DNA of 64,000 nucleotides from the NCBI RefSeq assembly GCF_040712315.1, contig NC_134013.1:82094001-82158000 (forward strand). The letters are read 5' to 3'. Every line of letters starts with the position of its first letter. Position 1 is the first letter of the stretch. Of this stretch, positions 18,625 through 62,675 are shown one piece after another. The position numbers and the translations under genes were made by a program. The notes beneath the pieces are model-generated. The model ran no database searches, was not told where the DNA came from, and saw only the letters and a program-made list of their open reading frames with translations. This DNA comes from Castanea sativa (taxonomy: Eukaryota; Streptophyta; Magnoliopsida; Fagales; Fagaceae).

Positions 18625-18657
<33 letters not shown>

Positions 18658-32801: not shown

Positions 32802-35800
32802 TTATTCCAAAACACTCTGTCCAGAAGTGGAATTAGCAATCCGCACTGCTGCACCAGATATAGTTTTTTGCAACCGCTCATCTTCCACCTTCATAACCAC
32901 CTTATTCACCACCGTAAAATCCAAGACCCCAGCCAAAACTAGTTTCCCAATAATTTTACCAAAACCATTTGGTGCTTTGGGTACGTCAAGACTAACATCA
33001 TCCAACATTGAGCCATAAAGTAAACACCCAAGCTCTATGTCTCCATCTGCAAGAACTTTCTCAGCAAACAAATACTCAAGAAGCTTCGCAACTGGTTCAG
33101 AACATGGTGGACTTTTCTCCAGTCCAAGGGAAATAGCTTCCTTGACGACCTCGGGGTGGTAAGCTGGAGAATTTAGTTCCTTCACACACTTAAGCGCTTT
33201 GTCCAAAAGCCTGACAATGAAATATTCCTCAACAAGAGAGACTGTTTTTCTCTGAAGACTATTCAACCTGGCAATTGTTTTGGTCACGGGGAGGAAGCCA
33301 CCTGGGCTGCTATCCCCTAGATTCTGTGATTCTGAGTATTTTTCAGTGATATTTTTGGCTTTTACCTGCAAAAAATAAACAGAAAAGGGATAGTTACACA
33401 TTTACAAATCAGTACAACAAGAAGCAAATCGAAAGTTTATGGACACAACTTTTGTATAAGAAATTAGCTATGTATACCTCTTCAGGCCTGGCAACCCAAT
33501 TGTTTGATCTCAAATCGAGCAGATAACGAATCATGAACCTCAGAAGTGGGGCCAGTTGCGTGCTGGTGCTCATATCATTCAACTGCCTAAAGTACTCATC
33601 ATTTTTACAGCGTGATGTTGGGCTCTCATCAAACTGCTTACCAACAGTGATTAATAACTGGCATAAGGCTTTAACATTTTCATTGGGTTGAAACTTGCTA
33701 TCAGCTGGTCCAAGAAGCTCCTGTTCACGTACACAAGTAACCACGAGCCATATAAATAACAATCAATATATTTACAATATATTTGAACAATATATGGCAC
33801 AAGCCTATTGTATAGAAAAATATTACATTTAGAAAGAAAATAAAGAAGGCAAAGAGAAAACACATAATGGATTTAACATGGTTCAGCCTACATCCATGAC
33901 AATTTTTTTAACAATTACATTTTTAATATATATTTGTTGGCTTGATGATAATGAGCAATCAACATGAAGTAAGTTGAAATTTTATCTTATCTATAAAGTT
34001 TATATTAAAAAATGTATATATAGTAAACTCTTGAAAATTCTATCTTATCATAAAATAAAATTCATCCTTTATCAAATTCCATAATGGAACCTTAAAATTT
34101 TCATTTTACCAATTCGGACAATTCTTTTTTGACGGTACCATTGGACTAATCCAAATATTTGGTTCCTATATATTTTGTAGGCCAAGTTACTAAAATGTTC
34201 CTGCCCCCCGGTTTAGACGTCTTAATGGACTTGGATCTTGACTAATATCGGGTCCAATTATTCCAAATTCCATAATGGAACCTTAAAATTTTCATTTTAC
34301 CAATTTGGACAATTCTTTTTTGAGAGTACCATTGGACTAATCCAAATATTTGGTTCCTATATATTTTGTAGGCCATGTTACTAAAATGTTCCCCCCCACC
34401 CCCCGGTTTAGAAGTCTTAATGGACTTGGACCTTGACTAATATCGGGTCCAATTATTTCTAACAAGATAGAGGGAGTCGGAATGAGAACCTGAACAACAT
34501 GATGAACAATCCTTTCATTCATTATCTTCTGCTTCATGAGCTCTCCGATTAACTGAATGTTTCCAAGAAAACGACGCTTGAGCATTCTTTCTCTAACCCA
34601 AAGGTCCATTGTTTGCTCTGGAGCAGTCATACGCCGTATTTCTTTTGTCAGTTCGTCAACACCCTCAAATGTCTCCTGGCATTTATTCAATAGGACTCGC
34701 GTGACAGTTATGTTTCTACCACCAGGAACATCAGATGGGAAACTCGGGAGCTTTTGATTAAGATCAGAACACAGGAGAGCGTACATGGGACAATATGCAG
34801 GTTCTGTTACAGCCTTGTTATATATCAGTGAGACAGTCCCCTGTATTGCAAGTCACAGGGAAATTTTCACATAAAGGTAAACAGGAACAATGTTTCTAAA
34901 ATGTGGCATTTGGATGTGTTAATTAATGAAACATAAGAAAAAAAAAAAAGCTTAACCACTAAGGTTTCAGCTGAATTAATTGCACTGTAAACTGGGTGAT
35001 CCTGTGGCCGATCAAACTTAGCTGGGGTATGCTTGTTCAGTATCCTGCAAAGGAATAGAAATTAGTATTCAGCATCACCTGCATCTTTTATAACTAAATG
35101 CTTTAAAACCAAGGCTATGCATTTGGGTTGGGGTTTTTCTTTGGTGGGTGATGTGCAAGTCACTGATAATAAAAAGGAACTACCGTATGACATTAAACAA
35201 TGCTGTCATTAGGTTCCAGATTAATAGGTTATTATGATATACGTTATCTTTACTGTTTTGAAACAAGTGTCAAGGTCAACAGTCGCAGCTAACAAAAAGT
35301 AAAAATATAAGAATGCAACGATTCGTTTAATCATATAGGCAATAGCAAATGCATCATCAACATCAATTTTATCCTATCTAAGTAAAGGTTACTGTTAGAA
35401 TTGTGCGGTTAAATGATTAAATTTACCATATCTCAAGAGCTTTTGGGACAATTGGTAATTTAATAGTTACAATCATTTAAAACTTACCCTGTACATCGCA
35501 TCTTTTGTTAAGGACAGTACTAGTAAAGAGTCTTTACAAAAGACGATTCAAGGGATGGAGGTGGAGATTTGTTGAGTGTAATCCATGAAAGGAATAAATT
35601 TGGAGGTTTTCTAGTTAGTTTTGCAACCCCACATTAGCTAAAAGAATAATATGGAGGTGCAATATTCCTATATATTAAGAATTTAAGAGTACTGTTAATC
35701 CCACATTGATAATAATAAGGTAGAGAGGTTGGATAATCCTTATAAATAGAGTGATGGTTTAGTCTGATGGAGCATTTTTCTGACAACGTCTAGAAATTTC

Positions 35801-36074
35801 AAGATTTGGATTGTTGTTAAAACTTGAAAAGGATAACAAGGTTCAGAGTAAACAATCCATGTTAACTATTGATCTATTCATAATTTCATATAACACATGG
35901 AAATCAAAGAGTTAATCAGCACATGAGGTAAGAATCATATATCCTGCAGAAGCTGCACAACTATGATAATTTAATATATTACCTATCTGCGGCTGTTTTC
36001 AAGATACGTTCGTTTTCAGAGAGATTTTCCCTTCTAGCTGACCATGGTAAGTCAGATTTTTGTTGAGGTCCTCC
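32802..36074 (-). CDS. eIFiso4G-like MIF4G-MA3 module (five exons); probable 3' part of a zinc-finger/eIFiso4G chimera
   Basis: Exons on the minus strand: 36074-35983, 35044-34957, 34840-34490, 33720-33478 and 33365-32802 (TAA stop). All have GT/AG boundaries and compatible phases. The first exon reads PWSARRENLSENERILKT, matching the PWSARRGTLSEK region at the start of the plant eIFiso4G MIF4G domain. Exon 3 has CPMYALLCSDLNQKLP and LGNIQLIGELMKQKI; exon 4 has FMIRYLLDLRSNNWV. Exon 5 has the MA3 domain (TVSLVEEYFIVRLLDKAL..., LLYGSMLDDVSLD). In the family, MIF4G and MA3 are platforms for the helicase eIF4A. Differences from normal eIFiso4G: the linker between MIF4G and MA3 is only about 40 residues, exon 2 is strongly diverged at equal length, and no N-terminal eIF4E-binding exons are found in 36075-37666. 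The reading frame is intact despite divergence. The nearest upstream coding exon on this strand is the zinc-finger exon ending at 37667, in matching phase 0. Confidence 0.85.
34073..34458. repeat. 191-bp tandem duplication inside an intron of the eIFiso4G-like gene
   Basis: 34073-34263 and 34264-34458 are near-identical consecutive copies, both running from caaattccataatggaacc to gggtccaattatt, with a C-rich tract of different length in each. It lies between the third and fourth MIF4G/MA3 exons and does not touch the splice sites. Confidence 0.9.
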
Positions 36075-37666
36075 CTGATAATTAAAACAACAGAAACAAT
36101 TAAACTCAAGTATTCGAAGTAAAGCCAAGGGAAAGCTACAAATACACAAAGGCATAATTTTGATGTAAAAATTGCCCAGAAAAAGAGGCAAAGGGTAAAT
36201 TGCTAATTCTGACATTCATACATACTTTCGAAATTAAATGTTGAAATTTCATTTAGACACAAGACCAAAAGTATCCATTCTAAAGCTATTTTATATACAG
36301 TATAACAGAGTCCATTTCCTATCAGAAGTAAGGGAAGGATGTAAGCAAAGTTAAAAAGATCCAATTAATCATGCTTATATTCATGCATGTTTACAGCATT
36401 ACCTACATACATACATGCTTAGTCTCAATTCAGCCAATCAAAGAAGAGAAAGTGAATCTATGATAATATATCTTTCTTTTAAATCTTGGCACTTGAGAGG
36501 TTGCCCAATCTCAAAATAGACTTTGTGACTGCTACAATGTTATACTTTTGACTTCAGGGTATAAAAGTAGTAATTTTATGAGTGTGTTTAGATTTTGCTT
36601 ATTTTCGACAACTTATTTGCATAGTGTTTATAAAAAAAAATATGATTTTTGATAATTTTTATTTTAAATGTATTACACAAAAAGTTAAAATTTAGATTGT
36701 TTGCAAAAAAAATAAAAATAAAATTTAACAAAAGGCAAATTTTTTTTTTTTTTTTTAAAGCAATTCCCCAACACACAATCACACATTAATCCGTTTACCT
36801 CTAGTGACATACTTTTAGCTTTTATGTACAACTTTTTAAAATATTTTTCTTTCTAATTTTCCAAAGTACAAGAATATTTTAGCGCATTTTCAATAAAAGC
36901 AATCAACAAAAAACTAAATAAACTGATAATAAAGTAAAGTGCTGAAAGTTTATTTACTTTTTTTCTTCTAGGCAACAATCGGTTTCTGGTCTCTGGATTA
37001 TTTGTCAAATGCTGATTAAATTGTACCTAAAAAAATGAGAATATATGTAAGTCAATAAGATTTTTCTTTTGTTGAGAAGTGCAAGTAAGAAAGTTACGGA
37101 ATTAACCAACCGACACTATAGTGTGTCCGATCGTGACAGTAAACCCATTAACAAAAAGTAACAGATTCCTAGAACGTAAATTTCCTATTTAAAAGACCCA
37201 ACCGACCAATACACCAATTTAACACTAAATTTTATAGCTTGGTAAACTGGTGGATCATGTAAGTTGTGAGGAAAAAAAAAAGCCCTGTTCATGAAATCTA
37301 ATATAAGACATGGCAAGTGGTTTCATATTGGGTCTAGTATACTGGATACTAAATCCAAGCCATGTTCGAGAAAAAAAATAATAGGTCCATATAAAGAGTG
37401 GCGGGCAGAAAGCATTAATATGAGCATGTGTGCTATTTTTATCACATGTCTGCATCGTGTTGGCTCTAGCGCATTGGAGCTAAGCCTTACTCTTATGAAA
37501 TGGGGTATGAAAGCTTAGGGGCTTGTTTTTTTAAAGGGTATTCTTAGGGACCTGATCACAAAATCCTGCAGAGTTTCACTATTTAAGAGTATATAATCTA
37601 AAAGACTCACTAATAATAGTTATGTAATAATACAAGTTAGCATGAGATTTGATGATGAGTACTGAC

Positions 37667-40600
37667 CATCTTATTCTTAGTAACATCCGAGTGAGGCTCA
37701 ACATCAGATGCCACTAATTCTGGAAACATATCTAGCTCTCGCTGCTGCGTTGTTGCTTCTTGGATGTCGTTTGGATTTTGCTTTGAAGGCATTGTAGTTT
37801 TTTTTGTCAATGGTGTAGAGCTGGTACTCCTGCCTGTTCTCTGAGCTCTAAGCCCTGCTTCCTTGGCCTTGTGCTTTCTACCTTGAAGGTGCTCATTCAA
37901 AGCTCTCTCACTTGAGACACTAACCTGACAGATAGCACAACTCCACTCCTCCTTGGGTCTCTTCTTTAAACCAAATGGTGGGAGCTCACTAGTGCCGCCT
38001 GCAGATGCTGTTTCAGCTTTCCGCTTTGCTCCAGAAACATTTGGAGTGGGCTTAGCCTGCGATAGAATACTCAAACACATTACATAAGAGGAAATTCTTG
38101 TATATAATCACCCGGTGAATAGTGAAACCTCAAGCATCATTTCTCATGTAAATCCCACCCTCCACATTTAACAGTATAGGATAAATCTAACTTCCAATTA
38201 CCTTATTTTTAGTAATTTAACAAGAAATATAATGTTTTGGAAATTTGACCAGATCTGAACATTGGAAAGGAGAACTAAGGATTTAGCATGAAGTATTTTT
38301 TATTATAGAGTTGGGGAATGTTGCTATATGTCATTTCTCAAGGGGGAAATCCAGGTCCTACCCATAACACTTTCATCAACCACACCCAATTCAACAATAA
38401 GAGCATCAACATTGATTTCTCTTAATTCTATCTTATTTTACCTTCCAAAAAGCCACTTTATCAATTATACAATACAATTTTACAATACTTCCAGCATCCA
38501 AACTTTTATTTTCCTATCCTACTCATTAAAATAATATTTTTACACAATAAAATAATATATCCCACAATCACCCTCATTTACAATACAACACATTATTTAT
38601 TCTCTTTCTTTCTGTTCAAGAACCACAATCACCACCACCGCTTCACCACAGACACCTAACACCACCTCTACCACCGGCAACCCATAATCTACAGTCAACA
38701 CCAAAAAAAAAAAAAAAAAAAACCCAGACCATCAACACCACACTCTCCAACCATCAACACCACAAAAAAAAAAAAACACAGCAACACACAGTCACACACA
38801 ACAAACCATCGGAGCCATCACCAGCAAACCCATGCTGCTGCACCACCAGACTCACACAACCCACGCGACCCAACACTAACCCACCGCGATCTCCATCGCT
38901 AACCACTGCAAAGCCACACAATCTTCACCCACAAACACAACAAAAATTTATGAAAACCGGATTGCTCAATTTGCCGCTGGGTAGCTCGATTTTGTTCAAG
39001 CTCGAAGGAAGCGGACTCACCGCTGGGAAGCTTGAAGGAAGTTGATTTTGTTGACCCACGCGGAGAAGGAAAAATGAAAGAGATAGAGAGTTGCCGGAGA
39101 AGGAAAAACGCGGAGACCCACCATTGCCGATCTTGCCGATCTAGAAACCCACCACGCGGAGAAGGAAAAATGAAAGAGAGACAGAGTTGCTGGAGAAGGA
39201 AAAACGCATGGACCATAACCGCCGATCTCGCCGATCTAGAAACCCACCACGCCAATCTAGAGAGGGCAGACCAAGAACAAGAACAAGGGAGAGAGAAGAG
39301 ATGGAAGACGGAGAGAGAAAGAGAGAGAGAAGAATGAATAAAATAGACTAAAATTTATACCATTTGAGCTACAGTGCGGTTCTACATTTAGAACTGCACT
39401 GTAGCTCAATTGTAATTTTTTTTAAAAAATAGTTGTAGTTTACCACTTTCATTTGAGCATTCTATTCTATTTTGGAGTTATACTATCTATTACTTCCTTA
39501 ACTGATATGTCATTTTCACTCACTTTAAAAGAACTTTTGGTATTTCAATAACTATTTTGTTCCCTCAACTTAAATTAACCTACTCTTTCTCATTGTCACA
39601 TTAATCACTCTCCTCTAAACATAACCAAACTATCTCAAGCGACTCTCCCTTAACAGGGGATTGCCCATCTTTAACGTTGTGTTTGAATGAAGGAATTGTT
39701 AAATACACAGAATTTTACAAATGACAGGATTTGCGTCTCCATCATTTACAAATTTCATTATTTGGATGTTATGTGAGAATAATACTTCATATACTACAGA
39801 GTCATCATTTTGCACATGCCATCATTTTTCATAAACCACCATTAAGGAAAAAAACCAAATCGTCTTTGATCATATTTAAACCCATCATTTTTACAACCAC
39901 CCTTCTCTCATGGTTGTGCTCCAATCTGTTCTGCACCAAATCTTCCTTCTCCCCCTTCCTCTTTTTCTAATCTTCTCTCTCACTTGACTTCCATGGCCAA
40001 AAACCTCTCTCTCTCTCTTACTTGATTGATGGTGGTGGCACAGGGTGGTTTGGCAGTAGCTCCTAGCTATAGCTGTAAGTAGGTTTGGGTTGGGGAGGGC
40101 TTATTCTAGGATTTGGGCTTTCACAACCGCATTCAACGGTCATGAGTGATGTTTTGTGATGGGTTCTGTTAATCAAACTTACAACAGTCAGTAATATGAG
40201 TGGTTCTAATTTGTTCCTTGAACAATCATGATTTTATTGTTGTGGGTGTTTAGGCTGGGATTTCCCTGACTAAGGTGGAATTTGTGGTTGGGATTTTGGC
40301 CTTACAAATTTTGGTCAAAAGTTTTTGAGGAAATTTTAATTTTCCACCTTTACAGCTAATCTTAGAATTTTCAGTTAACAGAATTTAAAATGTTGGCTTA
40401 ACCTCAAATTCTAGGCTTCTAGCTACATATACCTTGCCCAAATACGCAGTAAGTGGATTTCCTCATTTTGAATCATATGTTTACTTTTATTTACTTATCA
40501 TCTGAACACTTTCAATTCAACTACACTCATTTATGAATATGTTACTTCTTAACAACCAACATTCAATATACTTGAGCATAGCTTATCTAGATTCTAGTAA

Positions 40601-43600
40601 CATTCTTATAAAAATTTTCCAACTTAATAGGTTTTTTACTACACAATACTCCCTATATGCTTCTCTACTTTATCCACCTTGCTGTTACTCTATAATTCAC
40701 ATTGTCTTAAATCCTTGTATCTTTATAAATTATTTATCCAAGATATCAAAATCTTTCGCTCTTAGGTATCTCTTGGTCATCAAGTCTTACAGCCTCTTCA
40801 TCTTTTTTCTACTTTTTTTTTTTGATAAGTAATCAAGATTTATCGATATCAAAAAGAGAGAAACACCCAAGTATAGGGAGTATACAGGAGCGTACAAATC
40901 AAATACAAAAATTACATAAATCAAGTAAATCTAAAATTGAAGAAAATGGTTGGTTTCTCCACACAGATAACTAGTCCAATAAGGTTCTGAAAAATAGAAG
41001 CTTGAGATTAGACATAGAACACTCATTGTCTTCAAAACACCTACTATTTCTTTCCTTCCAAATACACCACATCAAACAATGAGGAACAACCATCCATATA
41101 TCTCCATTATGATGACGACCAAATTGACCTTGCCAGCAAGCAAGTAGCTCAACAACAGACATTGGCATAACCCAACAAACTCCAAATAAACTAAAAATCA
41201 TATCCCACAACTCCAAAGCAACCGGACAATGAAGGAATAGATGGTCAACAGTTTCACTTTTACACTTGCACATGTAACACCAATCCAAAATGCATACCTT
41301 TCTTTTCCTTAAATTGTCAATTGTCAGACATTTCTTCAAGGCAGCAGTCCACACAAAGAAAGCCACTCTAGAAGGAATTTTCTGCTTCCAAATGCTTTTC
41401 CAAGAGAAAAACTGCTCATGATGGCCAACTAGAAGATGGTAGAACGCACTAACCATGAACCCCTTACTCTTACAAGGTAGCCAACATCTCTTATCCGCCC
41501 CAATCCCCCTTACAGTAGTGCTATAAATGGTATTTATGAGGCTCCATTTACATAGATAACAGTACATCAAACACATAAATTACAAAGATAAAACATTTCT
41601 AAAAAATTAGAACAAGGAAAGAGATTAAAGGAAGAACTCCACTCCAGCAAGGTGTGAAGAAGAAGAGATGTGAATTCTGAAATAGATCGTTCCTTCACTT
41701 TGAAACGTCTTGAGTTCCCTTCTCACCAAATACACCATAGGACACAATTAGGACAGCGCTCCATAAATCAATGCTCCAAAATTCTAAAGTGTCTCACCAA
41801 AATTCTAACTTGAGATTAATTCCCATCTATTTTTATGCACTAAACTACATCATCTACAAAGGGCATATACACCAAGCAACTTCCTCTTGAATTGATTTAG
41901 TGAGCTTATCCATCACTAATGCAAAGAAATATTGACTTAATGATGATTCTTGGTGCAACCTAAAGTCATAGGAAACTCATTTGTGATGCCTCCCTTTGTT
42001 ATCACACAAGTTACAGCTTTGTCATACATTTTTAATTAACTTAATATATATATATAGATCTTTACTTTTTATATTTTTCCCTTAGGAGTTTAAATACGAA
42101 AATTGCTTCCGTGGTAGATAGCCCTAGTATTAAACCAAATTGATTCTCCGTTGTTCGGTGTCTTAACCTATATTCAATCACTGCCCCAAATTTTTATAAC
42201 ATAACTCATTAGTTTAATTCCTCGGTAGTTTGCAAGTTTTGAATATCTTCCTTGCTCTCGTAAATAGGCATTAGACTACTTGCTCATCAAAATTCTTTGA
42301 ACAAACCTATGATTTATATTCTCAATTGGGTTACTCAATTCGCGCTAATATTTTGTATTGCTTCAATTAAAAAGTTTATTACAATAACTTTTTATCTCTT
42401 TTTAAAAAGCTCTTTTATGCAATTGAAACCATTCAAGTCTCTTCTTTTCATTTCCCTTGTTTTGGCATGGTTATAAATGTTCTTTTCTTAATCATTCATC
42501 CCCAACTTGCTATACAACTTACTATATAATTTGCTTAGCCTCTTAGACAACTTTTTTTGCTTTACTCTTCACCACTATATTATTTTCACAACCCAAATTT
42601 TCTCTACATCTAGGTAGGCTTCCATGGCTCCTTTTTAATCTAATTGGTGCTTGAACCTCCTTACTCCACCCCAAAGTCTCCTTAGTTGCTCACCCAAATC
42701 CTTTAGATTCTCCAAAAATTTCTTTAGCCACTCTTTTAATACAATTAGACATGTCATTCCATCTTATCATCATCTTTGTCTAAATTTCACTTTCCTTCTT
42801 TGATCATCTTATCTTTAAACACATTTTGTTTCTTCCCCTTCAAACCCCACCATCTCATCCTTGGGTTTCTTTGTGTTTTCCTTCTTCTAATGCAAATATT
42901 ACCGCCAACCTTGTTGGGCTTTTGTGGAGCCTAATTATCTTTGATTCGATTGACGACCTGACCCGACCCGACCCGACCCGAATAATGTTGTGTGATTTTT
43001 TAATGGGAGATTTTCTGAGGCTTAGTCCATGGAGCAGAGGCTTGGGCCAACAGGCTATGTGTGAGAGAGAAAAAGACTGTAACTGCACTTTGTATTTTTC
43101 CTGATAATAGTGAAATCCCTGCAACTCCGTGGACGTAAGCAAATTGCCGAACCACGTATGTACTGTCTTGTGCGTGTGATTATTTTTCTTTGGCGTTTGT
43201 TTTCTCTATTTTTGTTTCTCACAAGTTTAGGAATTCTTGAAAATTCCCTACAAACCTTTGGTAAGTAATTATCTATTCTGGTATACCTTTCAATTGTTAC
43301 AACATCAATCTTTAGTTCCAGATTCTTAGAGTTGGCTATAGGACTAAGCCTTAGACCTAAATCATTACAACATCTCATGATGAAATATATTTGACGAATG
43401 ATTGTCGCATTTTTGAAGATAATTAAATGTGATTCCCTCTTCTTGAACCAAGTGTTAGTTAATATCCAATTATACACTGTTACAAAAATATTTAGGTCTC
43501 CTCCAATAAAAATCTTTTTCACATTTGGTAAACCTTAAATCAATTCGTCCATATCCTCCCCAAATTTGTTCTTTATGTATTCTTCCAATCTTATTTGAGG

Positions 43601-46600: not shown

Positions 46601-47701
46601 TTTGAGGATTCCTAAAACTTATTTTACGTGTTTCTTTATTACATTGCCTTCCTTTGTTGTTTTCTTGTCATTCAATACATATATTCTTGCTTGCCAGCGT
46701 ATACGTATTGTAGGAACCTTACCCTGTGCACCACTTGGTTTGTAAACAGCCCATTTAGCTGCGGTAAACCAAGTCCAGTCCCTTCAAATTATAATAAGGG
46801 GGCCCCAGGGTCCTTGCTCGAGCTTAGGCTTGGACACTGTCCAAAACTAACTCTCACAACATTTACATATGAATTGATAAGATAAGGGATTTATTACACA
46901 ACAATGAATAAGTTACACTTCCTCAAATTAACTTCTTAGGAAAAATTTGTAAAATAATACTTTTTTAATATTAATTACTTAAATTGCCATTGTTTTGAAG
47001 TTATTTAGGAATTTAGCCTTTTTCCTAAAATCATGTTTGGAAACACAATTTCACATAAGCTCATCCAATTGAGGACAATTTTAAGTGAAAATGTGTTTTG
47101 AAAACATTATTTTATAAATTAAAAAAAACCTACGTCTCCGAATAACTTCAAAGCAATGTTAATTTAGATTTATATTATTAAAATAATATTATTTTACGAA
47201 TTTCGTCTTTATTACATATACAAAACAAAACAAAAAGGGGGAAAAAAAAAGAAAGAAAAAAGAAGCAATTACTTTTATACATACTTCTTGTTCACATAGG
47301 ATTTGAGGGTGTCAGTTTTTTTGACAGCATTAAGGATTTCAAATCATAAATCTTAACATCTTTGCGACAACCGCAGACTTCTATTAGAAAGGATTCATGA
47401 CTAAGATTCTTTGCGTCCGACTTGCATGTGTTAAGCATGCCACCAGCGTTCATCTTGAGCCAAAGGATTCATGACTAAGATTCTAATAATTTTGGTTAAG
47501 TTATTTGATTCAATTTGTAAATCATAGGATTTTGACAATTATAATTTTATAATCATATTTGTCAAAATCTTATGATTTGCAAAAAGAATTCTTTCAACTT
47601 TAGCCAAAATAATTTGAACAACAGTTATAAATCCGTTGTAGGAGAATCCTTCAGTTTTCTCTTTGAACTTAAGCTAGCTTGAATTTTGAATACCATTAAA
47701 G

Positions 47702-47736
<35 letters not shown>

Positions 47737-50700
47737 TTTAAGAAGACAAAATTGCAGTTTCTACCTTTCTGTTTAGTAAGGAGAATGAAAATGTGAAATG
47801 ATGGAAAAGACAGAGAGGATAGAAAGAAGAGAGAGTGGAGTAGATACTAATTTTTCATTTTATGTGTTTTGTAGGAAGGATAGATTGTTTTTTCTTTTTG
47901 ATTAGCTAGGAAAGTGTAATGACAGGAGCATTCTACTTTAACAGAAAATTGAAAGGCTAAATTTAAACTTAATTACGTACAAAAGAGACTTGTTCGAAGA
48001 GGCCTCTACATGGTTCAATGCAGTCAAATTTTGCCGAGGTTTTTTCACCACAACGGCCTCATTGATTTCCCAAAATTGGGAAATGAGCTGCACCAGTGCA
48101 TGGCGGGTGCCAAGCTGCACCAGACTCAGTTCTATAGTTCTACTGATTTTGTCAGTTGACTCAGTTACAAAACAGAAGTCCAGCAAATTAGAACCTCACA
48201 AACATCACTTGAAATATGGTGGTGTAAAAAACTAAGGAAACAAGAACGAAGGGCTCACTGCCAAAAATGGCTTTTATGGGTGGCAATGTTGAAAACAATC
48301 AACGATAGCAAAGCAACGACGACTGTGCACAGCATCACCACAACAACAAGGCCAGATTGGCAGATCACATTTACCTCTCTCTATCCTAGTTGAAAATTGA
48401 GACCGAGTGCAAGATTTGACAGAAAAGAAGGGGACTTGGGAAAAATTATATGTGAGAAGGCCGGTCAGTGAAATTTTAGGCAGTTTTCTTGATCTCTTGC
48501 CAACCACTGCATCGACCTAGTTGGTTTTGGAAAATTTGTGACTGATCACCGCCACCAACTTGTCGAAAACTGTTGTTTGCCGATCAGTTTTGGTTCTGCA
48601 AGAAGGTCAATGCCGGTTGGTTTGTTTGCTGACCTGAAGGTCCTGAATAGCCCTAGTAAAGTACTTAAAAATGTATGGACGAAGGTAGGACAGCAACCAA
48701 TAGAGCCTACTACATATGCACATGGTAGCTTTTTCCATGTTAGAAATACTGAACTCAATAGTATTGTATTTCACAGTAAAAGAATATACATGAGTGCCTT
48801 TAAATAAGAGACAGATGTGTGCAATACAAGTAAGAGTGTAGTACAAGTATGTGTATTATACAAGTAATCTAGGTAGGCCTAAAGCCCATAACACTAAAAC
48901 ACATTAACAGCCCCCTCAAACTCAAGGTAGGTGTGAGACCAACTTGAGGTTGTCAACCAAAGCTATCTGCAAGTTGATCTTTCGAGGAGACAGAGAAGAG
49001 CTTGAGAGCACCATGGATAAGATGATAATGGGTAAAATGACAATCAATCTTGATGTGTTTAGTCCATTCATGGAAGACATCATTGTGAGCAATATGAATG
49101 ATACTTTGGCTGTCATAATAAAAAGAAGTAGCAGATGATGTGGACATACCTAAGTTCTTAAGAAGCCATCGTAGCCAAAGGAGCTCAAATGTGGTATCAG
49201 CAAGGGCATGATATTTTGCTTCAATATTGGAGCGGGCCATAAGGGTTTGTTTCTTACTTCATTAAGAAATCAAAGAAGAACTAAGTAGAAAGCAATAACC
49301 AGTGGTGGACCTGTGATCAATGAGATCTCCTGCCCAATCAGCATTAGAGAATGCACGGAGAACAAGAGGAGACTGAGCTGAGTAGCAAAGACCATGGAAG
49401 AGAGTGCCCTTCTAGTATCGATGAATGCGCAAGACAAAAATAGTGAGTCGATCATGGAGTAGACAGATACAGACTTACCCGATAAACAACATAGGAGATG
49501 TCTGGACGAGTAACAGTGAGATAAACTAGGCTGCCAACCAATCGTCTGTAAAGAGAGGGATTAGACAATGGTTTCCCCCTCGAGGAAGTCAGATGCGCAT
49601 TAAGTTCAACTGGAGTGTCAACAATCTTGCTATCAATGAGTCTAGCTTGAGACAAAAGTTCAGGAGTATACTTGGCTTAAGTAATTTAAAGACCATCTGT
49701 GGAATGAGTGATTTCAAGACCCAAGAAATAGCTGAGATGTCCAAGATCTTTCATCTTAAACTGCTGACTGAGAAAATCGTTGAGTTCTTGAATGCTACTG
49801 AGGTCATCACCAGTTATGATAACATCGTCCACATATAGGAGAAGCAAAATGTTGCCTTTGTCAGTGCGACAAAGAACTAAGGCAGATGGCAGTGTAACCC
49901 AAGAACTCAACGAAGGAAGGCATTTTGAAGGCCACAAATCCCCATATAAACTTCTTCACTCAAATCCCCATTAAGGAAGGCATTTTTAACATCTGTCTGA
50001 AAAATGTCCCCTTTACTAGCAGCGGCAACAGCTAAGAGAGCACAAATTGATGAGATACGAGCAACCGGAGCAAAGGTATCTTCATAATCAATCTCATACT
50101 CCTGTGTAAAACCTTTTGCAACAAGACGAACCTTATAGCCCTCAATGGACCCATCAGAGTGAGTCCTGATCTTGTAGATCCACTCACAACCAACCACAAA
50201 CTGTCTAGGAGGGAGAGTAACCAAATCTCAAGTATGGTTTTTGGATAATGCATCAAGTTCATTTTTCATCGCAATCTGCCATAACGGGTTAGTGGAGTGG
50301 AGGCCTCACGATAGGTGTGAGGCTTGTGGAGTGTAGCAAGGGCAGTGTAACAATGATAGTCAAGTAAATGTGCACGAATGAATCTTACTCGGGTTGAGTG
50401 ACGAGGTGGAATGTCTTGTGGCAGATCTTTAGGTGGAGCAGGAATAGGGGACCTAAGCTCAAAGTGGGGTAGTTCGTCATCAACCTATTCATCTTTCACC
50501 TGTTTAGAAGAAGCATAAAAAATATTTGGAGGTTAGATAGAGAAGTCCAAAGGAGGATCAAGAGTATTTGTAGAAGGAACACGAGACTCGTTTGGAAAGA
50601 TTTCTAAAACAGAGGAGGTAGCTAGGGAAGAGCGAAAGTGAGAGAGTTCAACAAACAAGCGGTGACCCAAAAAGGCGCTCATATGGAGTTTGATTGTGGA

Positions 50701-51662
50701 TGACAGTGCTCGAAATGCAATTAATAGTATAAACAACATGGAGAGTAGCTCCACCCCAAAATGGAGTAGGAACTTTGACAGAGAGAAGAAGAGTGAACAG
50801 TGTCAAGAATATGACGAAATTTTTGTTCGACTCGACCATTTTGTTGAGAGGTACTTGGACAAGTTAGTTGATGTATAGTACCATAGGAATGCAACAAAAC
50901 TTGAAAAACATATTGAGTATATTCAAAAATATTATCAGTTCGAAAAATCTTGATATGTTTGGAGAATTGTGTTTCAACCATTTTTGCAAAGTTACTGTAG
51001 ATTGGTAAAATTTCAGAACGAGATTTTATAGGAAAAATCCAACTATAACAAGAATAATAATCAATAAAAACGAAATATTGAGATCCACCAATACTAGCAA
51101 CAGGAGAAGGTCCCTAAACATCAAAATGAATTAACTCAAAATTACTATTAGAGATAAATTCACTATTATTGAAAGGTAAAACTGGTTGTTTTCCTAACTA
51201 GCATGAAAGACAATCATAATTGTCTTTGAACACATAACTTAATAGACCATTAGAAGCAAACTGTTGTACCCGAGAAGAGGGTGCATGACGAGAATGAGAA
51301 TGCCAAAGTGAGGTGTAATGTGATTGCAACAAGCAGAATCAAAAAGCCAAGTGTGAGCTATGATGCACGGACACGCCGATACAGCAATTTTAGAAAAATA
51401 AGGACACGACACGGTGTGGACACGACAATTAAATAATTAATTAAAATATTATATTTAGGCATATTTTTTTAATATTTTTAGACAAAATACGTTTATGTCT
51501 AGAATTTAAATTATGTAAAAATTACAAATAAATAAACTAACACCCAAAATAGTACAATAATGCACATAAAATATTTAGAGTACAAACCAAAAGTTTAAAT
51601 AGTCTATATTCAACACCAAACTAAAAACATAAAAGGAAAACAAGCTTTAAACTTTTGGGATT

Positions 51663-51724
<62 letters not shown>

Positions 51725-54700
51725 AGAGAGGGATTAAGAAAAAAAAAAAAGCTATAACTTAAGTGATATAATTTTGCTAAGTCACTAACAATACACTAAG
51801 TCACTATCTTTTTATATCATGGGCTAAGTCACTGTCTTTTTGGGGCTAACAGTGACTTAGCCCCAAAAAGTCACTAACAATATACACGCGTTATCTAAAA
51901 GATAGCATATTTGAAAGAAAGAAGAAGGAAAAAAAAAAACAGAGGGAGAGAGGAGAAGAGGTCAGACTCGGACCTGTCCACGCCGAGAGAGAGAGAGAGA
52001 TCGGAAGGGATAGAGGGCACGACGTCGACGGCGACTGTCTATGGAGCTCGCTGACTCACCAATTGGCCCGATCTAGCACTAGCGACTGTCTATGGGTTTC
52101 AACTTTCACCGGCAATTGTCAAAGTCGGTGATTTTCTCTTTTTTTTTTCATTGCTAGCGTGTCTACTGTGTCAGAGAAGCGGGGAAAAAAGAAAAAAGAA
52201 AAAAGAAAAAAAGGGACACCGCTTGGATACCAGAGTCTGACGAGTTGTGCCGGTATTCGTGTCTAACACGTGTCACGTATCGGACACCAGTACGTCGCCA
52301 AAAATGGTGTGTCGGTGCAACCTAGAGTGTGAGATTTACCAGGTAAAACTGAGAGAGCAGTGGAAAGAGATGCATTACCAGCCATACGAACAGCCTAAGC
52401 TATGATGTCCTGTAGTTCAGTAGGGGAGAGGTTGATAATGGATCTAGAAGATTGGGACTCAGCTGAAATGGAAGGCATCGGCAGAGTAGACTCAGTATTA
52501 GCAACAGCAACAGTAGATTTGTTGCAACAGTAACAAGTCTCAAAAGTGTGGCCAAGACACTTGTAATAGTTGCAAAACTTTTTGTTGGTTTGCTTACAAC
52601 GATTGCTAGAGCCAGAGGAATCAAACCCTAATTGCGAAGGTTGCACTATGGGTGGAGTAGAAGGAGCAATTGCCAGAACATTAAGCTTATTTAGGGCTTG
52701 AAGGGTTGCAAGACGAGCTTCTTCTCCAACCAACTCGTTTACAACAGTATCAAGAGAGGGAGGAGGACTGCGATTAAGAATTTAACCTCGGATGGGCTCA
52801 TAGTCCTTGTGAAGTGACATCAGGAATTCATAGAGACGAAATTCATCTCTAACGGTGGCATATTGCTGAGCATCCTTTGAGCATGCCCAAGTTGGATCAA
52901 AAAGGTCAATTTGGTCCCAAATGAAGCGAAGCTAATCATAATAGTCATTTATGGATTGCCCTAGTTCTTGCCTGAGTTGATGCAATTCAACCACTAACTA
53001 ATATTTCATGGATCCGTGACTAGTGGAGTATCTTTTGGCCAACATATCCCATGCAGATTTTTACATCATCAAAGCTGCCCAACAAATTGGAGATGAAGGA
53101 AATGGAAGTGTTCCGAATCCATGTGAGGATCATGTGGTTGTGACTATCCTATTCAATCATACAACTGAGGAAGTCAGCATCTTCTTCACTTGCCCCTTGA
53201 TAGGAATAGTGATTGCACCAGTACAATATTACCAGAGCATGCGGCCCTTAAGAAAACTGCGCATAGCTTGAGACCAAGATAAGTAATTCTTATTCTCCTC
53301 CAATATAGTATTAATGGGGGAAGGATGAAAAATATCCTTTTTATCCATTTAGAGACATAATATGCAAAAACAGACTGCAAAAATGAAATCTACGCAAAGA
53401 ACTGGGTAAGGAGAACCTAAACTGCAAAAAGTCAACTCTGGAGAAAAGTCAACGGTTCAGTCAAAGTCAACGGTCCCCTCAGTCAACGGTCAAAGGTGAT
53501 GATGTCAGCAAGATGACGTGGTGCAGACATCAACAGATGACTGGATGCTGACGTAAACTAGGGCTGACGTGGCACTGCTGACCTCATGGGTGACGTCAGC
53601 CTGGAGCAGTTGAATGTGCGTGGGGCGCTTAAGCTGCAACCTAGATCCTTTGAGCGGCGCATGCAGTCTCCGATGGCTTTGAGGCTTCCACGAGTGTGTA
53701 GATCGGCACAAAACGATCTTAGTGGTACCTGCAGAAAATTAATCGGAGCAATATTCGCAGTGGTGATGAAAAGAGCAGTGGTCTTTGCAGTGTGGAACTC
53801 CTCAACGGCGGTAGCTGCAAGTTCAAAACCCAAGGACAATAGCTTGAAGACGTAGGAGGTTCAACAGCGAAAGGCTGCGGTGGTTGCTGTGATAGCGGAA
53901 GCGATATTAAGAATAGAGTAACACCAATAAAAACAAGACTGCTAAGAAAAGGTCAAAGCAATGACTCTGATACCTCGTTAGAAATACCAAATTCAATAGT
54001 ATTGTATTCACAGTAAAAGAATATACATGAGTGCCTTTATATAGGAGGCAGATGTGTGCAGTACAAGTAAGAGTGTAGTACAAGTGTGTGCTATACAAGT
54101 AATTTAAGTGGGCCTAAAGCCCACAACACTAAAACACATTAACACTCCAAGTGAACCCACACATGAAAAATCAATAACCAAGGATCATCAGAGGCATCAA
54201 TCTAGATTATTTTGTGTCTAGATCACAATAACATCTTTATAAAAAAAATTTATAGCAAACATTCATAGATGCAAAGATCTAGTAATATAATCTACCTAAT
54301 CAATGACTACGATGCCCCTTTAGGACTGACTTTTAAAGTGATGTTCCAAAGTAGAAGGGCTACAAGAAGCATATTTAGCAAGCCTAAATACATGTGATGC
54401 AATTCTAAATATGAATGAGAAAAAAAAAACTATTATTTTCCTCTTAAGCCCATTCTTTTTTTTTCTCTCATTCATATTCAGTTTCGCATCACATGTATTT
54501 AGGCTTGCTACATATGTCATTGCTCTAGAATTAGTTAGTTCAAACAAAAAAAGGAAAATCATATAGCTAGTTCAAGCTATCAAATTAGCAAGAACACCCA
54601 AACTCAATCCCTTATTGAAAGGGAGCGAAAAACCACAAAAGTTCGCTAACAATTCTTTCATTTCTCAAGAACAAGTTGCCATTTCAAGTTTTCAACTACA

Positions 54701-57700
54701 GAAAACTCTTAAATAAGACAACATGATGCTGCTCTAGCTAAAACGAGATCATAACCACTAATTCAAGTCTAACTAACGATCTACATCTGTGCAACTATCT
54801 GTCCTGCAGTTGCAGACTCAAACACGTACATATAGCATGCATTAAAACATGGATACATTATGCAAATGTGCACACAAACATGCATGCAAACACACATGTT
54901 TACGTAATGTTAGTATACTTTTATATATATTTAGATACATCTACGTACATATTAGCCAAGGAAAATGTAAAGAAAAAAATTATAACAAACTTCCTATGAA
55001 TATATCCCCTAGGTACGCATTTGTTTGCATTTATTGGCCTCAAAATGTTTTTGAAGTGGAGGCCTTTTACAATTAAGTTTGAAAAGATTGTTTGTCAACC
55101 TAGAGCAAAAGGTAATTTTGGATCCATTTATTTGACAAGAACCTCGTTATGTATAAGTGAAAATTTGACACTCTTTATACGACCTAAATCTAGCAATATT
55201 TTCCTCATATTAGGAAAAGCTTTACGTCACAGCTACATTGACAAACTTTCTAATTTCAAGAGGTGAATATAGCAATTTCAAATTGTACAAAAGTTTTCTC
55301 CATACCAACTTGGAGGAATTTCCTTTAATCCATTACATGGTGATTCATAAAACTATCACACACTTTATTTAAATAAGTCACACAACTCATTTAATAAGTC
55401 ATGTGACTAAAAGTATATGTGGATGGTTTTATTAATTGCCATGTCGTGGGTTAGAGGAAAACTTTTTCCTTTCAATTGAAGATCCCCTTGAGTTCTTAGA
55501 GTAACTACACCAAAAAGTTTATAAAATCATATCCATTCACTTTGAATGAATGGATTGAATTTTGATACATTATCAATAATTTAAATGGATACCATAGTGG
55601 AATAGTTAAAGTTTATTTAAACTTTTGATGATGTGTCAAAATCCAATCTTTTAAAATGAATGGATAAGATTTTAGGAACTCCAAGGTGGAGTCACATGGG
55701 AACTCTGGAGGATTTCAACTCAACCCTAGTAGTTTCACCGAAACTAGTTGTAAACACATTAAGACAACATCTAACATAACATCAACAATAAGGCGAGATG
55801 TAAGATTGGTAACTAACCAGTACGATCAACTTATCCTTGTTGGTCTCCGATGGGGGCCTGACATCAACTGGCATAGCTTCTGGTAACCTCAGTAGTGGCA
55901 GCATTGGAAACATATCGAATGCATTGATACAACTGGGAAATGCAAAGCCACCATCAAACGTGTGCATTGACAATCCATACTCAAAAGAAATCCTGCCCTC
56001 GGCTGAGAGCCTCCGCAATGCCATCTCTCGCTCTATCATAAGCTCCCTCCTCACCTCTGCTTCGAGCAGTCTACGCCGGGTTATCTCGGCTGCAATTATT
56101 TCCTCTCTAATCTGCGCCTTCTCCAACTCACGTTGTACTATTGCTTCCTGGGTGTCATTAGGGATTTGAATTTGCTCCAAGTTTGGTCTCGGACTGGTGG
56201 TTGAAAATCCAGCTGATACTGATATAGGATTTGTTAAAAAAATTCAGTCAATTACATTAAGGAGAAAGTTGTGCTCTGTTTGCTAAGAAAGTTATGCTTT
56301 CAGTACGTGATTGGGCCTAATCAAAATTTCATAAATTTCCTTTCATTTCTTTTTCCTTGGTTTTCTTAGCAAACAAACAGATGAGACAAGCAGTGGTGAC
56401 GCCACGTGCAACTCAGGGTGTTCCCAAGAACACCATGACCTGAAAAAAAAAACAAAACAAAACAAAACAAAAAAAAACCTGAAGAAAAAAAAAAATTACA
56501 AAATTTTTTATATTTGCTCTGTATTAGGAACACCCTCAATCACAAAATTAGGAACACCCTCAATTTAAAAAAAATTTATTTGTTATACTTTCAAGCAAAA
56601 AAAAAGAAAGAAAGCCCAAAAATAAATATGAACTAAAATTTGAAGAAAAAAAAATTGTAACAGAGCGCTTGGCAACTCGGCAAGCAAGCCCAACAGATTA
56701 CAGGTAGCAATCCCACGGATTCTCAACCAAAAAAAAAAAAAAAAACCAAAACCCAATACAGAGCTGCAGAGCAAATCAAATCAAAAATCACTTCTAAATC
56801 AGAAATCCCTAAAGGCCTAAAGTAAACCTAAAGAGTAAAGACAGAGCAAGCAACGCCTCAGTCCCTCAGAGCAACGCCTCAGGCTCAAGCCAACTGGCAA
56901 CAAACGGAGTCATGGAGATCGAATAGGTCACGTCGTTTGCAGCTTGCTCATCGTCGAAGATCGGTCTAGTCTAGATCATCATCGTCGCTCGGCTCGCTCG
57001 CCACTACCCTCATCGGAGATCGCTCGTTGCCTCGTCATTGCCTCAGAGGCCTCAGCCTTCAGGCCTCCCTGCTCGGCTGCTCCGGTGTGGCGGTGCTCCC
57101 TCCCTCAAGGTATTTTATTTTACTAAACTAACTTCTCTCTCTTTTTCTCTCTCTCTCTCTCTCTATTTGAATCACTGAAATGAAAATTATGAGTCTCTCT
57201 CTGTCTTTATTCTTTAAGTCTAATTTTAATACTTTGTCTTTATCTGATTTTGTGATTGGGCCGCTGAACTGCAGAAGCTTTAACTTTATCTTTATTAATA
57301 TTTGGCTGTTTTTTGATTTTTTGAATTTGGCTTTATCTTAATATCTTGTCAGTTGGTGTTGGTGGGTGTTGTTGGTGTGTGTGTGTTTGTGTTTGTGTTG
57401 GTGAGATATTAAATTATTAATTGTTTTTTTTGTAATGTGTATTGTGATTTGTGATTGTGAAATTTTCTGATTGGCAGCTAGCTCTTGTGATTGGGGAAAT
57501 TTTCTTGAGGCTTGACTGGCTTGTCTATTGAGTAGGGTGGGGGTGGATGAACACATAGGGCCGGGTAAACAATAATTAAATCGGTGTAATGTGCACATCA
57601 GCCCATGGGATATGTAATGTGCACATCAGCCCATGGGATATGTAATGTGCACATGGCTGGCTCTTTTAGTATAGTGTGCACATAGATGTGTGCTAGTGCA

Positions 57701-59064
57701 ACTAATAAACAATAATTTAATTAACCAATAATTAATTGAGAAAAGCAACTAATAAATAATAATTAATAATTTAATTAACCAATACATTATAAAAGACAAA
57801 CAAATTAAATTATGTTAGGCTAAACAACAATTAATAATTTAATAATTAATGAAATAATAATACAACAAATTATAGTTTATAAAACACAAACAAATTAATG
57901 AAACAACTAAACAATAATAATTAATAATTTTATTACTATTTCAAATGAACTTATAGTTTATTGTATAGGTACCTTTGTTCATTTCTTTTCTTTTCATTTT
58001 TTTTTCCTTCTAAGGTTTTTCAGTGTACAGAATGCAAATTTGTTTTGGTTTTAAGAATATTTTTTTTTAAGCACAAACTTCATGCCGGCCAAATTTTGAA
58101 TTTCAGCCGGTATTTTCCGAAACACAGACCGAAATAACCCGAATTTTTTCAAAGTAGAATAGGAACACCCTAGAAAAAATTCTTGGAGTCCCCACTGGAA
58201 ACAAACATTATACATACACATGTATATAAGAGAAAACAAAAAACAGATCATTTTATAGGAAAAAGGTTCTCTTAAAGCTTTATAAAATTAGCTAAAAATA
58301 AAATCATTCAATTAAAGTTATGCTCTGTTGGCTAAAAAGTAATGCTTTTTCAGTAATTGGACCTCATCTAAATTTCAGGTATTTAAGTTCCTTTATTTTC
58401 CGAGGTTTCCTTAGCAACCAAACGGAAAGAGAGAAGCACTTGATAAATTTTTCATAATAAACAAAAAATTAAAAAATTAAAAAAAAAAAACAGTTCCATT
58501 CACAGGGAAAAGCTATTCTCTGAAGCATTATACATACACATATAAGAGAAAACAAAAAACAGATCATTTTATAGGAAAAAGGTTCTCTTAAAGCTTTATA
58601 AAATTAGCTAAAAATAAAATCATTCAATTAAAGTTATGCTCTGTTAGCTAAAAAGTAATGCTTTTTCAGTAATTGGACCTCATCTAAATTTCAGGTATTT
58701 AAGTTCCTTTATTTTTCGAGGTTTTCTTAGCAACCAAACGGAAAGAGAGAAGCACTTGATAAATTTTTCATAATAAACAAAAAATAAAAATAAATAAACA
58801 GTTCCATTCACAGGGAAAAGCTATTCTCTGAAGCTTAAACTTGGAAAAACATTCTTTTTATTATTATTATTTTTTGGATATTGAAATATAAAACAGAAAA
58901 AAAAAAAAAAAAAGATAAAAAGATAAAAGGTACAGAGGAACATATAAAGAAAAGAGGAGACCTCTCAAAGCTTGTTTGGAGACGTAGTTGGAGGTGGAAG
59001 GAGCAGTGGGATGCGGTGGTGGTGGTGGTGGTCGGTCATCAACAGCTCTAAACTTGAACTCCAT
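37667..59064 (-). CDS. U1-type zinc-finger protein, copy B: rearranged, probable 5' part of a zinc-finger/eIFiso4G chimera
   Basis: Exon 1 is 59064-58962 (residues 1-34) and exon 2 is 56218-55818 (35-168). Both are nearly identical to copy A: two changes in exon 1 and about seven in exon 2. Exon 3 is 38056-37667. Its first 92 codons match copy A (five changes) and contain finger 1 intact (C-x2-C-x12-H-x5-H at 208-230). After TTMPSK it departs from A and continues QNPNDIQEATTQQREL-DMFPELVASDVEP...KNKM, then an ATG|GTCAGT donor in phase 0. That tail resembles exon 2 of the same gene family (QNPNDTREAIVQREL...DMFP...NKDK) with the helical middle deleted. The second finger and the original C-terminus are lost. 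If the donor is unused, translation stops nine codons later. If spliced to 36074, the frame continues into MIF4G-MA3 for 743 residues in all. Intron 1 holds a hAT element and a tandem duplication; intron 2 is about 17.8 kb and holds a full copia element. Confidence 0.78.
38402..39464. mobile_element. Harbinger-like non-autonomous element, specific to copy B
   Basis: The left end is TAA followed by GAGCATCAACATTG, like the other two elements of this type. Near the right end is a palindrome, GAGCTACAGTGCGGTTCTA...TAGAACTGCACTGTAGCTC (about 39365-39406). The middle is a mix of AAACCAC-rich and GC-rich blocks. The right terminus (...tttgagcattc) is not a clean inverted copy, so the boundary is approximate. 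Copy A has a different short insert at this place. Frames inside (for example 39032-39337) come from repeated gagaaggaaaaa motifs. Confidence 0.6.
40806..41690 (-). mobile_element. L1 LINE 3' fragment (zf-RVT region), copy B
   Basis: The minus-strand frame 41576-40971 contains FYHLLVGHHEQFFSWKSIWK, PSRVAFFVWTAA, CYMCKCKSETVDHLFLHCP and WCIWKERNSRCFED: the zf-RVT domain of plant L1 elements (C-x2-C...H-x4-H-x-C). The 3' end has an A-tail (T run at 40812-40823 on the plus strand). Most of it is absent from copy A, where only a short remnant (19430-19690) exists. Confidence 0.8.
41690..43860 (-). mobile_element. Decayed RTE-type LINE, copy B
   Basis: Collinear with 19690-22150 of copy A but without the hAT insert. 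The endonuclease-like segment (NTWFKKRESHLIIFKNAT) is read at about 43380-43470 on the minus strand. It carries a private 341-bp solo LTR at 42912-43252. Confidence 0.7.
42912..43252. mobile_element. Solo LTR (341 bp) with AACCT duplication
   Basis: Begins TGTTGGGCTT and ends TTCCCTACA, flanked by AACCT on both sides (42907-42911 and 43253-43257). The uninterrupted sequence is in copy A near 21560. It contains a (GACCC)n run and sequence resembling a copia-type LTR 3' part (gcaactccgtggacgtaagc...). A solo LTR arises when the two LTRs of an element recombine. Confidence 0.85.
45099..45462. mobile_element. Probable solo LTR or LTR fragment, specific to copy B
   Basis: Inserted within the CA/TG-rich microsatellite that is uninterrupted in copy A (about 23390-23440). 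It begins TGATGCGGGAGACGC and has a tttataaacaattt TATA-like box and polyadenylation-like sequence. Terminal CA and target duplication are blurred by the flanking dinucleotide repeat. Confidence 0.5.
45503..46861. mobile_element. Solo-LTR-like insertion (1.36 kb), specific to copy B
   Basis: Starts TGTTGAGA and ends TCTCACAACA, the short inverted TG...CA ends of an LTR. Near 46308 is a strong TATA box (gctataaaagg), with A-rich sequence and a downstream region like R-U5. Copy A has continuous sequence here (about 23473). A 5-bp target duplication is not evident. The frames inside do not look like genes. Confidence 0.65.
48738..54144 (-). mobile_element. Full-length but inactive Ty1/copia retrotransposon
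   Basis: LTRs are at 48738-48909 and 53976-54144 (172 and 169 bp), with about 13 substitutions and two small gaps between them. Flanks are TTCCA and CTCCA, while copy A has a single CTCCA. On the minus strand the primer-binding site GGTATCAGAGTC follows the 5' LTR (about 53965-53975) and the polypurine tract TTTGAGGGGGC precedes the 3' LTR (48910-48920). Coding order is copia: gag with a zinc knuckle in which one Cys is Tyr (about 52550); integrase (HQLTCPSTSQQNGRVE, about 50870); reverse transcriptase (TDVKNAFLNGDL and YVDDVIITGDD, 50224-49690); RNase H (SNIEAKYHALADTTFELLWL, about 49230). Stops and frameshifts break all of these. It sits in intron 2 of zinc-finger gene B and carries a nested hAT-like element. 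Confidence 0.93.
51358..52325. mobile_element. hAT-like non-autonomous element nested in the copia element
   Basis: An exact 8-bp duplication AGTGTGAG flanks it (51350-51357 and 52326-52333). Ends are CTATGATGCACGGACACG and, as reverse complement of the right, CTAGGTTGCACCGACACAC. They resemble the ends of the element at 19878-20481, so both belong to one family. The interior has an (AT)n tract (about 51677-51718) and no transposase. It separates gag from integrase of the host copia element. Confidence 0.85.
56391..58197. mobile_element. hAT-type element (1.8 kb) in intron 1 of zinc-finger gene B
   Basis: Ends are CAGTGGTGACGCCA and (reverse complement of the right) CAGTGGGGACTCC, flanked by GAGACAAG and GAAACAAA, an 8-bp duplication with two mismatches. 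The empty site is in copy A (about 27690). The left part has a GC-rich block (56840-57110); the right part is AT-rich with a short tandem repeat at 57585-57655 (tgtaatgtgcacatcagccc). No transposase frame remains. Confidence 0.85.
58206..58833. repeat. About 310-bp tandem duplication in intron 1 of zinc-finger gene B
   Basis: 58206-58525 and 58526-58833 are consecutive near-identical copies starting cattatacatacacat and ending ctattctctgaag. Copy A has a single unit (about 27700-28040). Confidence 0.9.

Positions 59065-61918: not shown

Positions 61919-61954
<36 letters not shown>

Positions 61955-62602: not shown

Positions 62603-62675
<73 letters not shown>

Follow-up and report, generated by a model that had tools for sequence, protein, structure and literature searches.

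A fusion gene in Castanea, probably long kept, joins a zinc finger to a short eIFiso4G-like MIF4G and MA3 core

The window analyzed here, a stretch of 64,000 nucleotides from the Castanea sativa genome, carries on its minus strand a gene (hereafter the chimera) in which exons derived from a zinc-finger gene are joined to eIFiso4G-like exons. When the gene model was checked against the window sequence, 8 of 8 exons were found at the coordinates given in a preliminary description of this DNA, and 7 of 7 introns had GT/AG ends. The resulting frame of 2232 nt corresponds to 744 codons, the last of them the only stop, and encodes 743 amino acids, so the exon count, splice boundaries, length and single stop reported earlier were all reproduced. 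The exons are listed below, together with one that had been skipped and a transposable element lying in intron 2.

58962..59064, minus strand: chimera exon 1, with the ATG, derived from the zinc-finger gene and matching parent exon 28276-28174
55818..56218, minus strand: chimera exon 2, derived from the zinc-finger gene, with a long helix predicted
48738..54144, minus strand: Copia-type LTR retrotransposon of 5.4 kb in chimera intron 2, with RVT_2 and TG..CA ends, missing in the parent copy
37667..38056, minus strand: chimera exon 3, composite, with a zf-met part (38056-37780) and an eIFiso4G-like first-exon part (37779-37667)
36958..37026, minus strand: exon skipped in the preliminary description, 69 nt, 23 aa, phase 0, with splice sites and 100% identity to P0001 residues 300-322
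35983..36074, minus strand: eIFiso4G-like exon in which the conserved GGP..PWSARR block begins
34957..35044, minus strand: MIF4G exon
34490..34840, minus strand: MIF4G exon
33478..33720, minus strand: MIF4G exon
32802..33365, minus strand: MA3 exon including the stop codon

The joined product was used as the query in a protein search (proteins clustered at 90% identity) in which 7990 candidates were scored and the best 120 of 333 matches were listed. Two matches covered 100% of the query: P0001 (CMV_017027, Castanea mollissima, 95% identity) and P0002 (RGQ29_013030, Quercus rubra, 91% identity), both named only "hypothetical protein". A search of related genomes for the same arrangement had been suggested in the preliminary description, and these two protein records carry the same chimera, with the same domain order and junction. 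Using the junction region (residues 200-345) as query returned 59 proteins, and both halves were joined only in P0001 and P0002. Because full-length matches come from records of two other genomes, a chance origin of the open joined frame is unlikely; being annotated proteins, P0001 and P0002 are open by construction. P0002 differs from the window chimera in lacking the 23-aa exon, in carrying seven extra residues at its end and in its exon 2 start. Among the other matches, two MIF4G-like stretches were seen by eye in P0010 (Corylus avellana LOC132183681 isoform X2) and three in P0005 (Syzygium grande); these eIFiso4G-like gene models may reflect either genuine tandem fusions or genes merged in annotation.

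The 69-nt exon (37026-36958) lies in the splice context TTTTTTTAG/GTACAA..AAAAAA/GTAAAT, with a T-rich acceptor and phase 0 on both sides. Its inclusion yields a fuller chimera model of 766 aa, whose zinc-finger half is 98.5% and whose eIF half is 97.8% identical to P0001, and the forms with and without the exon are both in frame. The 23-aa sequence was found in P0001 and in the zinc-finger-less proteins P0003 and P0004. It is missing in the Q. rubra chimera P0002, so exon skipping may also happen, or its absence may be an annotation choice.

Intron 2 extends over 17.8 kb and contains retrotransposon insertions, among them the Copia element, whose LTRs (48739-48909 and 53977-54144) are 90.6% alike. 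A direct repeat of ~320 bases (58203-58530 and 58523-58837, 94.5%) was observed in intron 1. Scans of the window for tRNA genes and Rfam families returned no matches. Elsewhere on the minus strand, three open frames with zf-RVT matches (40974-41579, 31741-32331 and 2583-2849) are presumably remnants of LINE-type elements. On the plus strand, an open frame of 140 aa (13270-13689) has no significant Pfam match and is perhaps an exon of another gene; it contains repeated FDLNQK/FDLNQI stretches, which we take to be an EAR-like motif.

Three Pfam families matched the 743-aa product above their cut-offs: zf-met at residues 206-230 (32.3 bits, cut-off 21.2), MIF4G at 329-549 (112.4 bits, cut-off 30.8) and MA3 at 593-705 (84.1 bits, cut-off 23.2). 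The finger has the form CX2C..HX5H of the U1/zf-met, dsRNA-binding-type class, and zf-C2H2_jaz scored 22.5 bits, just below its cut-off of 22.6. By sequence, the finger found weak matches alone in the PDB, RNA-binding fingers among them (Star-PAP, E 0.031; ZFa, E 0.15). For P0002, zf-met scored 22.0 bits, and MIF4G and MA3 exceeded the Pfam cut-offs in both P0001 and P0002. The latter two domains were also detected by Pfam in P0003, P0004 and P0007, and P0006 and P0009 bear both in a precomputed list. The chimera keeps one finger, and P0057 (437 aa, zinc-finger only), a Q. suber relative of the zinc-finger parent gene's product, has two zf-met stretches; the second finger is missing in the chimera because it lies beyond the breakpoint. 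A W2 domain gave no Pfam match in the window protein (E up to 0.1) or in P0001 and P0002 (E up to 0.01).

The structural model of P0001, computed with 45 sequences, is of modest quality (mean pLDDT 64, pTM 0.46). A confident helix spans residues 58-109 and the finger lies near 205-243; the MIF4G and MA3 regions are helical, with low-confidence stretches between them. Its best PDB matches were the HEAT1 domain of eIF4G (8huj, E 1.3e-9) and the MIF4G domain of DAP5 (4iul, E 2.3e-8), followed by weaker matches to the MA3 domain of Pdcd4 alone (2rg8, E 9.7e-4; 2iol, E 1.8e-3).

Hallmarks of eIFiso4G set out in the consulted part of PMC3352336 are the eIF4E-binding site RYTR(D/E)QLL, an N-terminal SLRPGG and an H1-CT motif after MIF4G. 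The eIF4E pattern Y[TS]R[DE][QV]L[LI] was not found in the window protein or in P0001-P0004, P0006, P0007 and P0009; among the matches listed, it occurs in 79 of the 110 rows from P0011 to P0120, a set that includes P0057, which is zinc-finger only. SLRPGG was not found in P0001-P0004, P0006, P0007 or P0009, and the window protein was seen by eye to lack RPGG; among the matches listed, 78 of the 79 canonical proteins contain LRPGG. An H1-CT-like sequence, ARPEEVKAKNITEKYSESQNLG, is present in the chimera and is similar to the motif, with several conserved positions altered. At the 230 columns that are at least 97% conserved among the 79 canonical rows, the window protein keeps 140 residues, changes 56 and has gaps at 34, part of these gaps corresponding to the lost N-terminus and linker. 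With 56 columns changed and 34 gapped, eIF4A binding by the chimera may differ. That the chimera is itself a canonical eIFiso4G is ruled out, as the eIF4E site and SLRPGG are missing.

Closer to the chimera is a family of short eIFiso4G-like proteins (P0003, P0004, P0006, P0007 and P0009), limited in our searches to Quercus and Castanea, which have MIF4G and MA3 and no zinc finger; P0003 and P0004, from Quercus lobata and Q. rubra, are 535 aa long and have these two domains only. Both the family and the chimera have a short linker and neither the eIF4E site nor SLRPGG, and they differ in the finger. The preliminary reading of an in-frame chimera of a U1-type finger with a MIF4G-MA3 core therefore stands, with its partner revised from canonical eIFiso4G to a short paralogue without the eIF4E site.

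Comparison of the window with itself revealed a second copy of the zinc-finger part of the gene and placed the fusion point within the following features.

37779..37780, no strand: DNA-level fusion breakpoint, at the low-coordinate edge of the parent match; the parent's own edge is at 17379
16849..28276, minus strand: intact zinc-finger parent gene, with exons 28276-28174, 27536-27136 and 17655-16849, encoding 436 aa with no internal stop
17379..30299, no strand: left tandem copy, as far as alignable in the self-comparison
37780..63989, no strand: right tandem copy, enlarged by insertions, aligned to 11 bases before the window end and possibly extending further

The self-comparison block 17379-17999/37780-38400 starts at the fusion point, and base-level alignment agrees. 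Exon 3 is nearly identical to the intact zinc-finger gene through ..ACAATGCCTTCAAAGC and then diverges. The short-family proteins P0003 and P0004 start with 'MEQALIAGLSS..L.PNS.LKQN.NDIREATTQQRELDMFPELVASDVK.HSDVTKNKM' and continue straight into the sequence of the 69-nt exon; in the chimera, a start sequence of this kind begins within exon 3, directly after the zinc-finger codons '..TTMPSK'. Because homology to the parent breaks at the codon where similarity to P0003 and P0004 begins, the breakpoint is placed at about 37780, in coding exon 3. The preliminary description had set the join of zinc finger and MIF4G at the intron 37667/36074, across which the frame is indeed open and kept. This position is ruled out, since the exon 5' of that intron already holds eIFiso4G-like first-exon residues; the intron is internal to the eIFiso4G-like part. 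With the junction inside an exon, the eIF part is left without its former start and leader. The window protein shares the junction sequence 'PSKQNPN' with P0001 and P0002. That sequence is missing between the zinc-finger and eIF parts, a concern raised earlier, is unlikely, as the junction is a continuous exon that recurs in two other records.

The two copies are collinear and in direct orientation, with most aligned pieces at ~85-97% identity; of the 9576 noncoding sites that could be aligned, 612 (6.4%) differ between them. Their low-coordinate edges fall at 17379, within exon 3 of the parent, and at 37780, the chimera junction. Upstream of the ATG, the copies are closely alike for ~140-150 bases only, with short matching pieces beyond, and ~4 kb upstream of the chimera (59200-63200) stand where the parent copy has ~0.2 kb; this insertion-like difference could alter expression of the chimera. 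Since 17379-30299 and 37780-63989 are tandem copies whose edges fit two coding-exon breakpoints, the gene is most simply explained by a tandem duplication that broke within a coding exon at either end, an origin that the layout of the window largely shows. One end of the duplicated segment would have lain in the first coding exon of a short eIFiso4G-like gene, and the other in the last coding exon of a zinc-finger gene next to it. At the seam between the copies, the zinc-finger upstream region, exons 1 and 2 and the first-finger part of exon 3 would have been joined to the eIFiso4G-like remainder, in frame and within an exon. An intact zinc-finger gene would stay on the left; on the right, beyond base 64000 and thus outside the window, the model predicts an eIFiso4G-like gene that is likewise intact. 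No such second parent was found within the 64-kb window. In Q. rubra, the chimera RGQ29_013030 and the zinc-finger-less, eIFiso4G-like RGQ29_013031 have consecutive locus tags and come from contigs of equal length, an arrangement that fits the prediction of the tandem-duplication model. The earlier proposal that neighboring genes had fused is supported by the tandem copies and by the intact zinc-finger parent in the same window.

Comparison of the chimera's zinc-finger half with the corresponding part of the intact parent gave a dS of 0.155 and a dN of 0.025, hence a dN/dS of 0.16 (bootstrap range, 0.07-0.31). With Q. suber as outgroup, 9 of the 14 amino acid differences were derived on the chimera side and 5 on the parent side. 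Without constraint, and with divergence shared equally between chimera and parent, half of dS would predict 46 changes on the chimera side and half of the noncoding divergence would predict 20; the 9 changes counted there are fewer than either (P = 2.5e-11 and P = 0.005, respectively). Under simulated neutral evolution, the joined frame would be expected to acquire 9.6 disabling changes, and it stayed intact in 2 of 4000 runs (P = 0.0005), or in 5 of 4000 at half the indel rate. When only stop codons were counted, 7.8% of neutral copies stayed open (P = 0.078), so this version is not decisive by itself. As read from substitution patterns, the zinc-finger half of the chimera shows purifying selection.

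A change of F to S at residue 25 is common to all three chimeras and is in neither of the parental proteins compared. In trees of either half, the Q. rubra chimera did not group with the Castanea chimeras, and the forks are open; since its position is left unsettled by the trees, the case for a single origin depends on residue 25 and on the junction that the chimeras have in common. On these grounds, a single origin before the Castanea-Quercus split is likely. The clade with Castanea and Quercus is dated as splitting at 64.5 Ma, with Quercus separating at ~56 Ma, in the part of PMC8921187 consulted. If the origin was indeed single, the chimera would be older than the split dated to 64.5 or ~56 Ma and would have been retained as one protein-coding gene from before the separation of the two genera.

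Overall, we conclude that the window holds a real fusion gene at the DNA level, one that has probably long been kept. For the explanation as a whole, in which a tandem duplication gave rise to a retained fusion gene for a putative RNA-targeted eIF4G-type adaptor, we estimate a probability of roughly 0.72.

What the protein does is a more tentative matter. At odds somewhat short of even, we propose a putative RNA-targeted, eIF4E-independent adaptor of the eIF4G type, in which the zf-met finger would bring the protein to certain RNAs, MIF4G and MA3 would hold eIF4A, and the cap complex, with the eIF4E site missing, would be unneeded or competed with. The chimera places a finger of RNA-binding type on a scaffold of eIF4A-binding type that lost its eIF4E site and, if expressed, provides a natural setting in which to ask whether translation factors that are RNA-selected and independent of eIF4E evolved in plants. 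DAP5 acts as an activator of translation and Pdcd4 as a repressor. In mammals, DAP5 is reportedly a non-canonical initiation factor on which selected transcripts depend. Whether the chimera would raise or lower translation is a question that sequence cannot decide. A repressing role, in which the protein without an eIF4E site would tie up eIF4A on finger-bound RNAs in the manner of Pdcd4 or truncated eIF4G, appears unlikely, although the eIF4E motif is gone while MIF4G and MA3 persist and the MA3 part of the P0001 model matches Pdcd4 MA3 structures. Activation and repression are not separable on such evidence, MIF4G has diverged, and eIF4A binding is only predicted.

The fusion could also be a decaying by-product of duplication, real as DNA and open in frame but yielding little or no stable protein. 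The large, retrotransposon-bearing intron 2, the upstream region altered relative to the parent copy, the 7.8% of neutral copies left open in the stop-only simulation and the annotated status of both outside records would all agree with such decay. Against this stand the low dN/dS of 0.16 with too few amino acid changes on the chimera side, the full neutral simulation (P = 0.0005) and the same full-length product being annotatable in two other genomes, and we regard a by-product as decidedly unlikely. Still less probable is that the locus comprises two genes, one giving a truncated zinc-finger transcript and the other an eIFiso4G-like transcript that starts independently. Retention of intron 3 would stop the zinc-finger protein nine residues past exon 3, and related short eIFiso4G-like proteins do exist as single genes; however, the junction lies within an exon, the eIF part no longer has the start and leader that it once had, and the halves are joined in both outside records. 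An assembly or annotation artefact is scarcely credible even though tandem copies can be misassembled, for the records from C. mollissima and Q. rubra show the same junction, and copies that differ at 6.4% of noncoding sites make a misjoin of near-identical reads unlikely.

Beyond the fusion gene itself, its short eIFiso4G-like partner may carry a trace of an earlier fusion. A search with the short-family N-terminus returned 8 proteins, all from Quercus or Castanea, 2 of which are the chimeras. When the N-terminal stretches (78-86 residues) of five short-family proteins were aligned to the first 200 residues of P0057, they scored 78-83, a level reached by 0 of 2000 shuffles for each of the five (shuffle maximum against P0057, 55-64). 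The other 111 MIF4G rows listed, mostly canonical eIFiso4G, scored no more than 51 against the short-family N-terminus, and ten other zinc-finger proteins scored 33-75, many within the shuffle range. The matching stretch corresponds to zinc-finger exon 2, and in P0003 and P0004 it also takes in the last part of exon 1. Support is weaker at the DNA level, where the short-family N-terminus scored 48.5 against parent exon 2 (27536-27136), with 37 as the best of 300 shuffles; against chimera exon 2, it scored 43, with 45 as the best of 300 shuffles, in an alignment that pairs a different stretch. Most short-family members have 'SLRPN' in the N-terminus, which recalls the canonical SLRPGG. Canonical eIFiso4G is nevertheless not preferred as the source, because P0057 outscores the canonical rows (78-83 versus at most 51), and a zinc-finger origin of the short-family N-terminus is preferred instead. 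The alignments suggest that the zinc-finger gene was probably the source of the short family's N-terminus, that the eIF4E site was lost in the exchange and that the finger was added later, in the chimera.

Linkage was read by eye in 11 non-Fagaceae species that had both row types among the matches listed. Zinc-finger and eIFiso4G-type rows were on equal-sized contigs in five (Corylus, Juglans, Actinidia, Dovyalis and Durio) and on contigs of unequal size in six (Carya, Bauhinia, Diplodiscus, Shorea, Malania and Corchorus capsularis); the two rows of Carya have different tag series, both naming chromosome 15. The two types of gene may therefore be old neighbors. In its fullest form, this history would have one zinc-finger gene fused twice with a neighboring eIFiso4G relative, supplying first a new N-terminus and then a finger, to give a cap-independent, RNA-targeted and lineage-specific factor kept for >55 million years; we consider this extended history speculative and rather unlikely as a whole.

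Among known systems, canonical eIFiso4G (P0014 in Castanea, P0039 in Fagus) has MIF4G and MA3 in common with the chimera, in which an H1-CT region is recognizable though altered. It also has a long linker together with SLRPGG and the eIF4E site, whereas the chimera has a short linker and neither motif. Animal DAP5/eIF4G2, which we take to combine eIF4G-type MIF4G and MA3 without an eIF4E site, is matched in MIF4G fold by the P0001 model; its identity with the chimera was rejected, as the chimera has a zinc finger and no reported W2. No account of this particular fusion was found among the literature titles listed, in a coverage that leaves most subscription journals outside. Chimeric genes born by tandem duplication are described in Drosophila yakuba (PMC5460883), and among Oryza fusion genes, Type I fusions with parents in the same region number 2 of 35 (PMC9199173). 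The consulted parts of these two articles make no mention of this gene or domain pair; the chimeras that they describe were likewise formed by segmental or tandem duplication, with one parent kept. By origin, the Castanea fusion gene is thus of a known kind, a duplication chimera, with a domain combination that is new as far as our searches reach, and its breakpoint, one parent and both copies can all be read in a single window.
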